Shown here: piece by piece, positions 26,882 to 32,313 of the stretch
How the letters are laid out: every line of letters begins with the position of its first letter
Position numbering within the stretch: the stretch's first letter is position 1
Source: Parvicella tangerina
Lineage (GTDB): Bacteria > Bacteroidota > Bacteroidia > Flavobacteriales_D > Parvicellaceae
NCBI RefSeq assembly: GCF_907165195.1
Contig: NZ_OU015584.1
Location: forward strand, 3,048,978 to 3,112,977
Direction: 5' to 3'
DNA: 64,000 nt
Notes under the pieces: generated by a model
Seen by the model: only the letters and a program-made list of their open reading frames with translations
The model's database searches: none
Told to the model about the DNA's origin: nothing
Position numbers and translations under genes: made by a program

Positions 26882-27415
26882 ATGAAACGAATTCTTCTTC
26901 TCTACTTGGCTATTCAATCCCTTCATGTGTATGCACAACAGTTAGCTATTGACAAGGAAAAAGTTAGAATTGAATTCCTGACTTCAGCAAAAAGCACTGC
27001 GGGCACAATCGGAGGTTTTGAAGGGCAAATTGTATTCAATCCAAACGCTTTGGAGGATAGTCGTATTTCTGGTAGCGTAGACGTTAACACTTTAGATACT
27101 GGTAATAAACTTAGAGACAAACACTTGAAATCCGATGACTTTTTTGATTTGAAGAATTTTCCAAGAATCTACTTTGAAAGTACTTCTATACGAAAAGCCA
27201 GTAATAGCCAGAAGTCCAACTATCGATATCGCATGGAAGGCGTCTTGACCATTGAAGACTCATCACACAACGAGGTGATCATCTTCACGTTTACCGACAA
27301 TATCTTTGCTGGCGAAATGACTGTATCTATGACTAATTATGACCTGGGGCTTTTCTCTAAAAAGAAGGGAGATAAAAGTGAAGTCACCATCAAGTTTACC
27401 CTTCCATTGAAGTGA
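26882..27415 (+). CDS. YceI-family periplasmic lipid-binding protein
   Basis: A 177-residue protein with a signal peptide (ending VYAQQ) and a lipocalin-like YceI fold. Typical features are GTIGGFEGQIVFNP, the SGSVDVNTLDTGNKLRDKHLKSDDFFDLKNFPRIYFES segment and an antiparallel C-terminal sheet. Family members bind polyisoprenoid lipids or small amphiphiles in the periplasm; the ligand here is unknown. The stop overlaps an alternative start of the next reading frame, but the real next gene probably begins at 27469. Confidence 0.85.
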   Translation: MKRILLLYLAIQSLHVYAQQLAIDKEKVRIEFLTSAKSTAGTIGGFEGQIVFNPNALEDSRISGSVDVNTLDTGNKLRDKHLKSDDFFDLKNFPRIYFESTSIRKASNSQKSNYRYRMEGVLTIEDSSHNEVIIFTFTDNIFAGEMTVSMTNYDLGLFSKKKGDKSEVTIKFTLPLK

Positions 27416-27468
27416 GAATAACATATTCTCCAATATTTGAACTGTATTTCTTTATATTTGGCTTACCA

Positions 27469-27822
27469 ATGTCATTCGAAAAGAAAATAGCATCCAAAAC
27501 AGATTTCGAACTCGCTGAAATCCTTGAAAACAGAGAGAATTACGTCCCTCAATTTGTGGAATTTGCAGAATTTGAACTCTCCAATCGATCAATTTCTGTT
27601 GAAGAATTCAAAGAAATTGCCAAGCAGCTAGTAATTCAAAAAGTAAAAGAAGCGCTCAAGTCTTACTCTCCTCTAAAAGGAAAATTTAACATTCCTTCGA
27701 GCCATTTTTTGACGGAAGAGGAAGTTTTAGCCATTACTAAGGTGGAATTCGAAGCTTGGTTAGAGCGAAAAGAAGACTTTGGATTTGACGTATGGAAATA
27801 TGCTGTCGGTGCAATTGCTTAG
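27469..27822 (+). CDS. Hypothetical protein with a Bacteroidota short-helical motif
   Basis: A 117-residue protein starting MSFEKKIASKTDFELAEIL. The segment ELAEILENRENYVPQFVEFAEFELSNR resembles a short helical motif seen at the ends of many Bacteroidota membrane proteins; the rest is acidic and helical. No enzyme motif is seen. I start at the ATG at 27469; the longer in-frame start at 27412 adds 19 hydrophobic residues and overlaps yceI. A TATATTTG box at 27453-27460 is a perfect -7 match but sits only 8 bp before the ATG. Its stop overlaps the convergent paralogue gene by 4 bp. Confidence 0.55.
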   Translation: MSFEKKIASKTDFELAEILENRENYVPQFVEFAEFELSNRSISVEEFKEIAKQLVIQKVKEALKSYSPLKGKFNIPSSHFLTEEEVLAITKVEFEAWLERKEDFGFDVWKYAVGAIA

Positions 27823-28430
27823 AATCCAGCCGTGATGTGACGATAATGTTTGTACCTTTTCTTTTTGAAGACAAAATCTACGTTTGTTCCTTCTGGCATT
27901 TTCATAATAACCTCCTGTGACTTCTTCTTACCAAAATAAACTGCATAAACCTGAATTTCTTTCCCATTACAATAGTGTGGAACATCCACAAAATATTCAC
28001 CGACCTTGTTTTCCAGAAGCTCCAACTCTTTACCATTTGGTAGGACAACCCAAACACTTCCTGAGATTGGGTTCCCTTTTTTGTTAAACAATCGAACGCT
28101 TAACATTTTACATTCCGAATTCTCTTGAATGACATTGTCTTTCAAACGTAGAATCGTTTCTTGTGTTTGTGCAGAGATATTATTAAAAAAAGTACCTCCT
28201 CCAATTAGGAGTAGTACTAACGCAAACTTCGCAAGCGAAAAAGAAGCCAGGTCCTTTTCACTTTCCACAACTGCCACACACTTGTCTGGATGCTGTCTCC
28301 TCCAAGCATGGTAATCATTCGTTGATATCGAACCTAAATCATAAACCTTCTTTTCACAATAGTCACAGTAAAAACCGCTTGGCAATTGCTTCATAGAACT
28401 CGTAGATTTCGGACATGGAAACTGTATCAT
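27819..28430 (-). CDS. Paralogue 1 of a tandem array: four-Cys motif plus TM plus beta domain
   Basis: A 203-residue protein. Residues 1-55 carry a CP, CxxC and C pattern (Cys6, Cys22, Cys25, Cys51), the layout of a small zinc-ribbon-like domain common in Bacteroidota. A transmembrane segment follows (about 63-85, containing SLAKFALVLLLIGGG). The C-terminal 110 residues are a predicted beta-domain containing VVLPNGKELELLE and FGKKKSQEV, and end in a basic-aromatic tail RYKHYRHITAGF. The topology suggests a cytoplasmic metal-binding head and a periplasmic domain. It is the last of three paralogues (27819-29690) with gaps of 6 and 10 bp. Function unknown. Confidence 0.7.
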   Translation of the reverse strand: MIQFPCPKSTSSMKQLPSGFYCDYCEKKVYDLGSISTNDYHAWRRQHPDKCVAVVESEKDLASFSLAKFALVLLLIGGGTFFNNISAQTQETILRLKDNVIQENSECKMLSVRLFNKKGNPISGSVWVVLPNGKELELLENKVGEYFVDVPHYCNGKEIQVYAVYFGKKKSQEVIMKMPEGTNVDFVFKKKRYKHYRHITAGF

Positions 28431-28436
28431 ATTGGT

Positions 28437-28772
28437 TTAAAATTTACCTCTTATTTTCCTATAGAAACTCTTGTTAGAATACGAGAAATTCAACAGATAC
28501 TCTTCGTCTGGGTCAAACTCTTTTATCACCTCCTTTTTCACCTTACCGTTACTTGGGTGTACCTCAACAACAATCCTCTCCCCTCGAAATTTTTCCTCTA
28601 AACGAATTGAGAAAAAATGTTGTGCATTCATGCTTAGGTTGAACGTAGTATCCTCTCCACAAGTAACTCTTACCCAAGCATATTCTAATCTCCCATCCTT
28701 TCTGGTTACAGATATGGATAAATTATCGTGTTTTACAGAATCTTCAAGGTACATCGCTCTTATCTCCATCAT
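28437..28772 (-). CDS. Paralogue 2, C-terminal half (frameshifted or separately translated)
   Basis: A 111-residue frame that corresponds to the periplasmic beta-domain of the two neighbouring paralogues and ends in the similar tail SFYRKIRGKF. It has no signal or membrane segment, so it cannot be a stand-alone homologue of the full protein. Read upstream without a start, its frame stays open to about 28810 and gives FAFGNQFLEAN, which continues the membrane segment of paralogue 2. Its ATG overlaps the upstream TGA (ATGA), and GGAGG lies five bases before the ATG, so coupled translation is possible. Alternatively it is the back half of a frameshifted gene. Confidence 0.6.
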   Translation of the reverse strand: MMEIRAMYLEDSVKHDNLSISVTRKDGRLEYAWVRVTCGEDTTFNLSMNAQHFFSIRLEEKFRGERIVVEVHPSNGKVKKEVIKEFDPDEEYLLNFSYSNKSFYRKIRGKF

Positions 28773-29047
28773 ATTAGCCTCCAGGAATTGGTTTCCAAAA
28801 GCAAACCCGCCCTACCCATAACGATGATCAGAGCCAGTGCAAATCTTTTTAAGCCATAGGTTTCTACCTCAGCCATAGACTCTTCAAGAACAACGCAAGC
28901 TCCTGGGTTATTTTTTCTACTTTCTTCAATTTCGTGAAGAGTACTTTTTGACAAATCCAACAGGGTAGTATTACAATCTGAACAGTAAACTCCTTGGTTC
29001 GACTCTATGAAATCTTCTTTTTTCTTAGGACATGGGAATTGGATCAT
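28769..29047 (-). CDS. Paralogue 2, N-terminal half (four-Cys motif and TM segment)
   Basis: A 92-residue frame with the same Cys6, Cys22, Cys25 and Cys51 pattern as its neighbours and the start of the transmembrane helix (YGLKRFALALIIVMG). After GRAG the frame departs from the paralogues and stops at 28769, 4 bp into the downstream frame. A one-base backward shift at about 28802-28808 would join it to the C-terminal half to give a protein of about 200 residues like the neighbours. Mutation, sequencing error and programmed shift all remain possible. Confidence 0.6.
   Translation of the reverse strand: MIQFPCPKKKEDFIESNQGVYCSDCNTTLLDLSKSTLHEIEESRKNNPGACVVLEESMAEVETYGLKRFALALIIVMGRAGLLLETNSWRLI
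28802..28808 (-). other. Heptamer GGGTTTG at the frame junction of paralogue 2
   Basis: Read on the minus strand, the heptamer is G GGT TTG in the upstream frame, the X XXY YYZ layout of a -1 slip site. A slip here would move into the open downstream frame and give a chain that aligns with both neighbouring paralogues. The heptamer is not among the strongest known bacterial slippery sequences and no strong downstream hairpin was found. Confidence 0.35.
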
Positions 29048-29057
29048 AATATAAACT

Positions 29058-29690
29058 TTAAAAGGAAGGACAACCTATAGTACGATATTGATACTTTGAC
29101 CGATTTGTTTTAACGTTAAATTTAATTTCTTCAACTACCCGCACGCTATTCTCTAAAAATTCAACCTTTCTTGTCTTCTTCTTTCCAAACCGATCTGCGT
29201 GAATAACAATTGATTTACCTACTACAAAAGCAGGGACTTCAAACAAATAGGTATTATCCTCTTCAAGCAAAGGTTTCAATTCCTTTCCATTAGGCATTTC
29301 AAGAACTACCTCTACGCTAGAGGAAATGGTATCAACATTCTGGTCTACACATATAATTTCCAGCATTCTCTTTTTGCAAACGGCTGAATCGCTCATTTTT
29401 ACTGAATTTATTCTATCCAACAGCTGAGCATCGGCAAATCGGAACAAAGACGCTCCAAAAACGATCAATAAACTCAACGCAAATTTTCTTAAGGACGGCC
29501 CTGAATGAATTACATTGCGCTTGACAGTTGAAATACAAACCTCATCATTTTCCGCTATCAACTTCTTTACTTTGTCTGGTTCTATCCCATCAATGCTCAA
29601 CACTTCTTTGGAACAAAATGAGCAAAAAAGCCCGTTGGATGATGGGCTTAGTTCTTGTCGTGTTACAGGGCATGGAAACTCAATCTTCAT
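29058..29690 (-). CDS. Paralogue 3 of the tandem array: four-Cys motif plus TM plus beta domain
   Basis: A 210-residue protein starting MKIEFPCPVTRQ. Cys7, Cys23, Cys26 and Cys52 repeat the spacing of its two paralogues, followed by a transmembrane segment (about 63-85, SLRKFALSLLIVFGASLF) and a C-terminal beta-domain with VVLEMPNGKELKPLLEED and FGKKKTRKVEF. The tail KYQYRTIGCPSF parallels the other two. I start at 29690, where translation begins at the conserved motif; a longer in-frame start would run into tamL. It lies 46 bp after the tamL stop with no terminator in between, so the array may be transcribed with tamL. Confidence 0.7.
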   Translation of the reverse strand: MKIEFPCPVTRQELSPSSNGLFCSFCSKEVLSIDGIEPDKVKKLIAENDEVCISTVKRNVIHSGPSLRKFALSLLIVFGASLFRFADAQLLDRINSVKMSDSAVCKKRMLEIICVDQNVDTISSSVEVVLEMPNGKELKPLLEEDNTYLFEVPAFVVGKSIVIHADRFGKKKTRKVEFLENSVRVVEEIKFNVKTNRSKYQYRTIGCPSF

Positions 29691-29736: not shown

Positions 29737-32313
29737 TTAGAATGGATATCCGATCCCGAGATTGAATTGAGGTTTGTAAAAATTCTTTCTTTCCTCTGAA
29801 AGTCCACCTTCCCAAATCCATCTAGATCCACCAGGAAGAGATGGATTTTTAATAGGAGCGGCAACATCCAATCTGATCACGAAGAAATCCAGATCAAAAC
29901 GAAGTCCCAAGCCGCCTCCAAATGCAATCTCAGAAATAAATTTAGACTTATCAAATAATCCACCCACTCTCAGCGAATCTTCATTCAGGAGCCAAATATT
30001 ACCTGCATCTACGAATAGCGCACCCTCTACCCAACTAATTAAAGGAAAACGAGCTTCCACATTTCCTTCCAGGTGAATATCTCCGATCTTGTCGTAGCGC
30101 AATTCATCATCCTGATAGCTACCCGGACCAAGTGTTCTTGCTTTCCATGCTCTAATCCCGTTAGATCCTCCTGCAAAAAAACTTTTTTCAAACGGTAAAG
30201 CTTCCTTCAGGTTAGCCATAGGTTTCCCTACTCCACCCGCCAAGCGATAGACTATCTTACTTTCTTTTCCAACAGGGAAGTAATAACGCAGATCAACAGA
30301 CATTTTGACAAACTGTGCAAAACGAATATTGAGCAGATTATAGCTCTGTAAACTATCATTAGCATAAGAAGCCCCTGCAAGATCGTAACCAGCTCTCAAT
30401 ATATTACCTGCTGTTTCAATGGTTGACCTCACATAGAACGTATTCTTCACCTTTTTGTCAGTCTGTCCATTGTATACAAACGAGAGCTTTCCCCCTGCAA
30501 TGATATGATCTTGATAGCTTGCTGCCAGAAAGCGATCATTAAGTTCATCAATGATGTTTTGGAACGCATCCGACTTATCAATAGATACAGCAGAAATGAT
30601 CAATGGGCTCACCCGCCAGGTAAAAGGAGGCGACTCATGATACACCCATCCAAAACTAAATTCCTCAATGCTTCGCCTGAAATCAGGTCTTCTTTGAAAA
30701 TTTAGTGATGCTGAAAACTCCGTATTTGGGTTGGACAGTTTTTTGTGAAGTAACTTTTCAAGCGGAGTTTGAACGAATAATAAACGGTGAATTTGGAGCG
30801 ATACTTTTGGTCCAAATTCGAGGGTGTTAAATGTATTTGCAATCTCCTCTACACTCGACACTTCCGAACCAACGTTTGCAGAAACTGAGTCGGTCAATAA
30901 TCGTTGCATTTCAACTCCGCCAGCAACTGAAACCTGCAACTTCTCGGCTCCACCGAAAACATTACTATGCGTGTAGGTCATACTTCCTTCTACTCCAAAA
31001 AGACCGTTAGTGTGCGTACCATCTGTAGCAGCTGTAAATGTTTGTGCTTTGCTGGGTTCCAATCTTATGAGAACGATCAGTGTACCTTCATCTTCATTTT
31101 CGATGAACTTCATATTTACCGCCCGGAAGTTTCCTAATCCGATAAACTTCTTGTAGGTTGCATCAATCAGTGATTTCCTGTAAAGATCTCCTTCTTTAAA
31201 CAAGATTGTACTAGCCAGCAGCTGAGGGCGGATCTTCATTTTGTACTTATGATAAAAATCGATGCTATCTACGGTTAGTTTTGCATACTTGGTGGTCTCA
31301 TCATCTTTAGGGTGAAAATCTGGAAAGACTCGTATTTCCTTGATTACAAAACGTTGATGTGGCTTATCTTTCATGGTATCGTTGACCATGTCTTTATACT
31401 TGAAGTTCTGAATTCCCATGGTAATGTTCACCTTCTTCTCACCGATAGTACTATCCACCTTGAAGTAAATGAACTCTTTGTTAAAGAAGTAGAACCCTTG
31501 TTCCAATAAAAACTTTGTAATTCGAGTTCGCTCCTTTTCCAACCGGTCAGTATTAAAGTTTTGTCCGGCTGCAATTATACTGTCCACTTTCAGAGGTTTC
31601 AATACCTTGACAATATTCTGATCAGCAATAACTCTTTCGTATTTGTTAATCGTATAAGGTTCATTAGGAATTACCGTGTAAACCACTTTTGCTTTTTGTC
31701 TGTCTTTTTTTGAAACTTTAACTGGGTTACCTTTTTTATCAACTTTTCTATCGAACAACACAACAGAGTCCTTCACCACGTTATCAAAATACCCTTTCTT
31801 AATTAAGTAGAGATGCATTTGCTTGGTTGTCTTATCAATTTTAGCAGAATCCAGAATTACAGGTGCTTCACCTGCCTTTCTTAACTTTTCTCCAAAAGTC
31901 AATTTCCTTTCCACAAGTTGTTTGGGTTCGTAGTATGGATTTTTAGCCGATTTCCTTTCGTTCTTAGCTTTAATCTTCTCGTTCTTTTTGTCCGCTTTTT
32001 GTTGCTTCTTCTCAATCTTACGCTCCATCCTTTCCTCATTAGAACGGTTATAAAGCCACAAGTGAAACTTACCGATCAGTATCTTTCGATTCGGTTGTTG
32101 CTTAATGACCCCGTTGAGTTCATCAGTAGTTACACCTGTTTTATTCAATAATGAAAATGCAACGGTACTGTCGTTCTTGATAATGATTTCATTCTCTGAC
32201 AGGAGATAACTATCCGCTGGAACGTATTTAGTTTGCGAACAAGAAGACAACACGCCTAGTGCGAGTAAGGAAAGAAAAAGGTAAAGGCAGCTATATTTTC
32301 TGAACAATCTCAA
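29737..32313 (-). CDS. TamL-type BamA/TamA-superfamily outer-membrane lipoprotein
   Basis: An 858-residue Omp85-family protein. The N-terminus is a lipoprotein signal with lipobox LSSC (Cys25), a feature of the Bacteroidota TamA-like protein TamL. POTRA domains follow (to about residue 430), one interrupted by a Lys/Glu-rich insert near 115-130, and then a 16-strand barrel ending FNLGIGYPF. It would work with TamB in moving lipids or inserting proteins at the outer membrane. No tamB gene is next to it; the neighbour upstream is a divergent rRNA/tRNA methyltransferase. General BamA is less likely because of the lipid anchor. Confidence 0.82.
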   Translation of the reverse strand: MRLFRKYSCLYLFLSLLALGVLSSCSQTKYVPADSYLLSENEIIIKNDSTVAFSLLNKTGVTTDELNGVIKQQPNRKILIGKFHLWLYNRSNEERMERKIEKKQQKADKKNEKIKAKNERKSAKNPYYEPKQLVERKLTFGEKLRKAGEAPVILDSAKIDKTTKQMHLYLIKKGYFDNVVKDSVVLFDRKVDKKGNPVKVSKKDRQKAKVVYTVIPNEPYTINKYERVIADQNIVKVLKPLKVDSIIAAGQNFNTDRLEKERTRITKFLLEQGFYFFNKEFIYFKVDSTIGEKKVNITMGIQNFKYKDMVNDTMKDKPHQRFVIKEIRVFPDFHPKDDETTKYAKLTVDSIDFYHKYKMKIRPQLLASTILFKEGDLYRKSLIDATYKKFIGLGNFRAVNMKFIENEDEGTLIVLIRLEPSKAQTFTAATDGTHTNGLFGVEGSMTYTHSNVFGGAEKLQVSVAGGVEMQRLLTDSVSANVGSEVSSVEEIANTFNTLEFGPKVSLQIHRLLFVQTPLEKLLHKKLSNPNTEFSASLNFQRRPDFRRSIEEFSFGWVYHESPPFTWRVSPLIISAVSIDKSDAFQNIIDELNDRFLAASYQDHIIAGGKLSFVYNGQTDKKVKNTFYVRSTIETAGNILRAGYDLAGASYANDSLQSYNLLNIRFAQFVKMSVDLRYYFPVGKESKIVYRLAGGVGKPMANLKEALPFEKSFFAGGSNGIRAWKARTLGPGSYQDDELRYDKIGDIHLEGNVEARFPLISWVEGALFVDAGNIWLLNEDSLRVGGLFDKSKFISEIAFGGGLGLRFDLDFFVIRLDVAAPIKNPSLPGGSRWIWEGGLSEERKNFYKPQFNLGIGYPF

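Follow-up and report, generated by a model that had tools for sequence, protein, structure and literature searches.

A tandem array of four-cysteine head proteins with a signal-peptide-like helix downstream of tamL in Parvicella tangerina

In the 64,000-nucleotide stretch of the Parvicella tangerina genome analysed here (the window), three head-to-tail genes on the minus strand follow tamL. We consider it probable (roughly 0.6) that this array encodes envelope proteins that are exported via Sec with an extended signal peptide, from which a folded, probably metal-binding head is left behind. The head, about 55–65 residues with four invariant cysteines, would stay in the cytoplasm, would probably bind a metal via its four thiols and would be present while the precursor engages Sec. 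The helix that follows would form the hydrophobic core of the signal peptide and would be cut by signal peptidase I here and by signal peptidase II in relatives. The transthyretin-like beta domain would then be released to the envelope, with the head remaining behind. Tentatively, the head may gate, dock or steer the export of its own passenger. The three genes would be local tandem copies of an array-forming family found across the class Bacteroidia, the middle copy being interrupted in the assembly. This reading draws on computed homology, the invariant cysteines, the pattern at the cleavage site, the recurrence of tandem genes and the absence of a consistent linkage to tamL; cleavage itself, metal binding and gating or steering of export are what we infer.

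The tamL gene (29737–32313, minus strand) passes the NCBIfam TamL model. The open reading frame coordinates confirmed the tandem arrangement given in the preliminary description, with gaps of 46 bp between tamL and the first gene (P1), 10 bp between P1 and P2 and 6 bp between P2 and P3. The three heads share the spacing C-x15-CxxC-x25-C with a proline right after the first cysteine, and all three proteins have the R/K-F-A-L helix and end in a phenylalanine after Tyr/Arg residues, as had been described. Two further claims held for P1 and P3 only. The motifs PNGKEL and FGKKK, attributed to all three proteins, are absent from P2, and P2 is not one intact open reading frame but is split over two frames. 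The frame change lies at about 28806–28819. The genome around the window is a single contig of 3.98 Mb, so that the frame change may be genuine or may be an assembly error left in the sequence. A convergent gene on the plus strand (27412–27822), which has no Pfam or NCBIfam match, overlaps the stop of P3 by a few bases. No RNA element was found between 26 and 34 kb of the window, and a promoter and terminator scan gave counts little above those of shuffled sequences and no clear operon boundary.

Table 1. Features of the array, in positions of the window.
Feature	Position	Strand	Remarks
P1	29058..29690	-	Full gene, 210 aa; head, signal-peptide-like helix, transthyretin-like beta domain and basic tail; ends IGCPSF
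P1 four-Cys head	29523..29690	-	Residues 1-56; Cys 7, 23, 26, 52; Cys invariant in 75 relatives
P1 hydrophobic helix	29442..29486	-	Residues 69-83; KFALSLLIVFGASLF
P1 predicted signal-peptidase I site, A-D-A/Q	29424..29435	-	Residues 86-89; supported by family statistics; like ordinary signal peptides of the window
P1 predicted mature exported part	29061..29426	-	Residues 89-210; beta-sandwich at about 105-195
P1 C-terminal GCPSF	29061..29075	-	Common to divergent relatives in other families
P2, first frame	28769..29047	-	Head (Cys 6, 22, 25, 51) and half of the helix; 92 aa, then stop (TAA)
P2, second frame	28437..28772	-	Extracytoplasmic part; 111 aa from ATG; upstream open to TAG near 28813
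P3	27819..28430	-	Full gene, 203 aa; plan as P1; tail HITAGF
P3 four-Cys head	28266..28430	-	Residues 1-55; Cys 6, 22, 25, 51
P3 predicted signal-peptidase I site, I-S-A/Q	28167..28178	-	Residues 85-88

The four cysteines are invariant in a head alignment of 75 diverse rows, in which P1, P2 and P3 are included, showing that the cysteine pattern is not due to chance. The head consensus reads IPxPCxExWxxMxPxxxGRFCxxCxKxVxDFT...CGRFxxxQ. Matches to the head family were found in 201 of 296 genomes of the class Bacteroidia, about two thirds of those sampled. A scan of named genomes yielded 80 loci, all of them labelled as Bacteroidota or as members of this phylum, with one exception, a head gene (L158) on a contig labelled as a Limnohabitans (Pseudomonadota) MAG. 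This is probably a Flavobacterium contig that was placed in the wrong bin. When the window proteins and their relatives were scanned, no Pfam or NCBIfam model covered the head; weak, scattered matches to zinc-finger, RING and GATA models were below cut-off and mutually discordant, and we rejected them as a family name. The HxxxCxxC motif of zinc-binding anti-sigma factors (ZAS, RsrA/ChrR type) was also looked for, and neither P1, P2 or P3 nor a conserved column of the alignment has a histidine four positions before CxxC. Carriage by phages or plasmids was likewise discarded, with no head gene in the phage search and head genes on three non-mobilizable replicons in the plasmid search.

Next to the heads, the ends of the helices point to cleavage. 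Among 194 members, 117 helix ends (60%) contain a lipobox, compared to 2% of downstream control stretches, and in 59 more a glutamine follows a small residue (A/S/G), V or Y, leaving 18 members without either motif. In a non-redundant set (n = 67), for which one member was kept from each group at 55% identity, 55 members end in a lipobox or A/S/G/V/Y-Q and 12 do not, while the best of 500 shuffles permuting the same residues reached 38. Composition alone makes A/S/G/V/Y-Q frequent, with a mean of 27 of 67 in the shuffles, and the evidence is therefore the excess and not any single case. On a poorly resolved tree with many unresolved forks, lipobox and A-Q ends are interspersed, with at least eight changes between them. 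The residues ahead of the helix carry on average 2.5 K/R against 0.5 acidic residues, a bias expected for an N-in orientation. P1 and P3 have ADA-Q and ISA-Q at the helix end and P2 is interrupted at the corresponding place; ordinary exported proteins of the window end their signal peptides in FAQ, MAQ, NAQ or YAQ, and the lipoproteins of the window in a lipobox.

Furthermore, a T9SS sorting tail (PF18962) scores above cut-off in several members of the head family, and such tails make sense only for exported proteins that are freed from the inner membrane. On plasmid pAT1 of Aureibacter tunicatorum (L196, 1381–3693), three tandem genes carry the annotation energy transducer TonB. One of them has a plain signal peptide (LLAQD), whereas the other two have a four-Cys head and an EAQ-type end. 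The plain-signal gene, which is TonB_C-type, has a mature domain homologous (45% identity) to the one encoded by a head gene. The motif excess, the comparison within the window, the T9SS tails and the Aureibacter genes together favour a cleaved signal peptide, and the helix resembles a signal peptide more than a lasting membrane anchor.

An AlphaFold model of P1 built on 50 alignment rows (mean pLDDT 85.8) shows a small head rich in beta structure, followed by a long helix and a beta domain of seven strands, with block pLDDT values of about 89–96 for residues 111–190. Residues 105–195 matched transthyretin-like (prealbumin-like) sandwiches with Z-scores of about 8–10, values near 8 being common for beta-sandwiches, and an rmsd of mostly 2.3–3.2 over about 76–90 residues. 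The modelled domain thus appears to belong to the transthyretin-like fold class, with middling Z-scores and a fold that does not tell the function. P1 resembles the transthyretin-like and CarboxypepD_reg-like domains in fold here, whereas the sequences of P1 and P3 gave no significant match to the corresponding models (PF13715, PF13620 and PF00576). An unbroken helix (residues 67–102) spans the predicted cut site in the model; AlphaFold does not model cleavage. The head alone, modelled as 64 residues, reached a moderate pLDDT of 79. The fold search with this model gave no significant match to a zinc ribbon or any other solved structure (best Foldseek E-value 3.0, Z-scores of at most 2.3), at a model size so small that a missing match says little. 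A sequence search of the head against solved structures returned mostly short HMG-box stretches with E-values of 0.02 or worse, which we judged to be chance matches. The preliminary description had proposed a cytoplasmic four-Cys head coupled to an extracytoplasmic domain. The charge bias and the predicted beta-sandwich agree with this topology, but a stable coupling is not favoured by the signal-peptidase I and II motifs found throughout the family.

The position of the array after tamL had also been taken as a possible link to TamL, in which case the proteins could be TamL-associated accessory proteins in outer-membrane assembly. Here and in one congener (G002), a head gene indeed adjoins tamL in the same orientation. 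Of 60 relatives, 56 have a tamL homologue, but no head gene was seen in any of the other tamL neighbourhoods retrieved, and two other congeners lack the link, so that it occurs in 2 of 4 genomes of the genus. In many of these neighbourhoods no head gene is present, and the genes after tamL are ones that we take to be fba, accD, rpsO and pnp. Elsewhere head genes lie away from tamL, and the P. tangerina genome itself harbours three more family members away from tamL, two of them with CarbopepD_reg-type outer parts (one, L006, above the PF13715 cut-off). Moreover, tamL has been described as monocistronic in Bacteroidota (PMC12045153), which also counts against such a role. On these neighbourhoods we dismissed a partnership with TamL, which we regard as highly improbable. 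The array itself is conserved at the family level, independently of tamL: a sibling on the same strand lies within 2 kb for 46 of 145 head-gene matches from the taxonomic order, none has one on the opposite strand, and 25 of the 80 named loci contain between two and four heads in a stretch of about 6 kb. Arrays in head-to-tail orientation are thus typical of the family as a whole, and the tamL link, confined to two congeners, is local and incidental. The head gene of the G002 congener (L034, contig C42, 11–517) contains a TAG in frame and is situated at a contig end, which may truncate its array.

Two other explanations concern the proteins themselves. The array could be a by-product of gene birth and death, consisting of local duplicates that are under weak selection, are decaying and have no conserved role. 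The interruption of P2, the in-frame stop in the congener, a variable copy number and the absence of head genes from the majority of genomes in the taxonomic family would fit this, but P1 and P3 retain the four cysteines, a cleavage-type site, the beta domain and the tail, and the GCPSF tail recurs across families. This makes decay quite improbable. Alternatively, as the preliminary description suggested, the proteins could be uncut single-pass sensors, in which a metal- or redox-binding cytoplasmic head is permanently joined via the helix to a periplasmic sensing domain, similar to anti-sigma factors. The topology, the invariant cysteines and the beta domain outside are compatible with sensors, and some relatives have a TonB_C domain and are annotated as energy transducer TonB. 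Against this stand the signal-peptidase motifs at the helix end, the T9SS tails and the neighbouring genes. No sigma factor or receptor was found among the repeated neighbours within a set of 86 same-strand genes, and the 25 commonest Pfam families of this set, beyond which there are 33 rarer ones, include no sigma family. The commonest family is that of the dxs product (27), the recurrence of which probably reflects descent within one family. We therefore regard uncut sensors as unlikely, though less so than decay. A conserved leader combined with a hypervariable passenger was considered as well and set aside, as the divergence between P1 and P3 does not clearly increase past the helix.

Export with an extended signal peptide recalls the ESPR of type V autotransporters, an N-terminal extension before the Sec signal peptide that is thought to add a cytoplasmic-side function (PMC2805444). 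The head family likewise extends N-terminally ahead of a Sec-type signal peptide. However, the long autotransporter signals comprise about 50–60 residues in all, with no mention of cysteines (PMC2805444), whereas in the head family the extension alone has 55–65 residues, carries four cysteines and is predicted to fold. The head family also differs in its taxonomic range, the class Bacteroidia, and in the proteins that carry it, which are lipoproteins, T9SS cargo and small beta proteins. Its cargo comprises small beta domains, T9SS-tailed proteins and TonB_C proteins and not autotransporter or two-partner cargo, and the ESPR model of Pfam had no match in the window proteins (E 10) or in the relatives scanned (E 0.1). 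The head would act like an extended signal peptide but falls outside the ESPR definition. The literature covered on long signal peptides in Bacteroidetes contained nothing on a four-Cys head, most subscription papers being outside this coverage. In annotated plasmid records, members are named 'carboxypeptidase-like regulatory domain-containing protein' or 'energy transducer TonB', names that cover the variable C-terminal part and pass over the head; P1 and P3 score on neither model.

About two thirds of the sampled Bacteroidia genomes contain a conserved domain that no family model describes, in proteins whose names derive from their unrelated C-terminal parts. Recognising the head would correct the signal-peptide and TonB annotation of many genes. 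If the helix is cut, the head would represent a type of export leader for which the literature searched has no description, and whether a metal-binding N-terminal domain controls which envelope proteins exit the cytoplasm becomes a testable question. The strong conservation of the head suggests that a partner exists; the neighbouring genes of the family point to none. A broader and more speculative possibility, which we hold to be less likely than not, is that folded metal-binding domains of this kind occur throughout the class in front of Sec signal peptides that are cut from lipoproteins, T9SS cargo and small proteins of the envelope. Such a domain would gate or steer the export of these proteins in response to metal or redox state and afterwards remain in the cytoplasm.

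Within the family, the copies in the window fall into a supported subclade (98/91). Most of its members have PCP or PCS instead of PCHE, their passengers are short and several share the C-terminal GCPSF. This C-terminus is found in P1 and in L010, L014, L017, L019, L203, L205 and L207, with GCPAF in L114; these proteins are otherwise divergent and their families include f1 and f9 (f17 for L114). P1, L010, L014, L017 and L019 have another cysteine earlier in the mature part, which makes a disulfide possible. In L017, L019 and L114, the predicted mature part comprises only about 55–65 residues and is strongly basic, with one or two cysteines.
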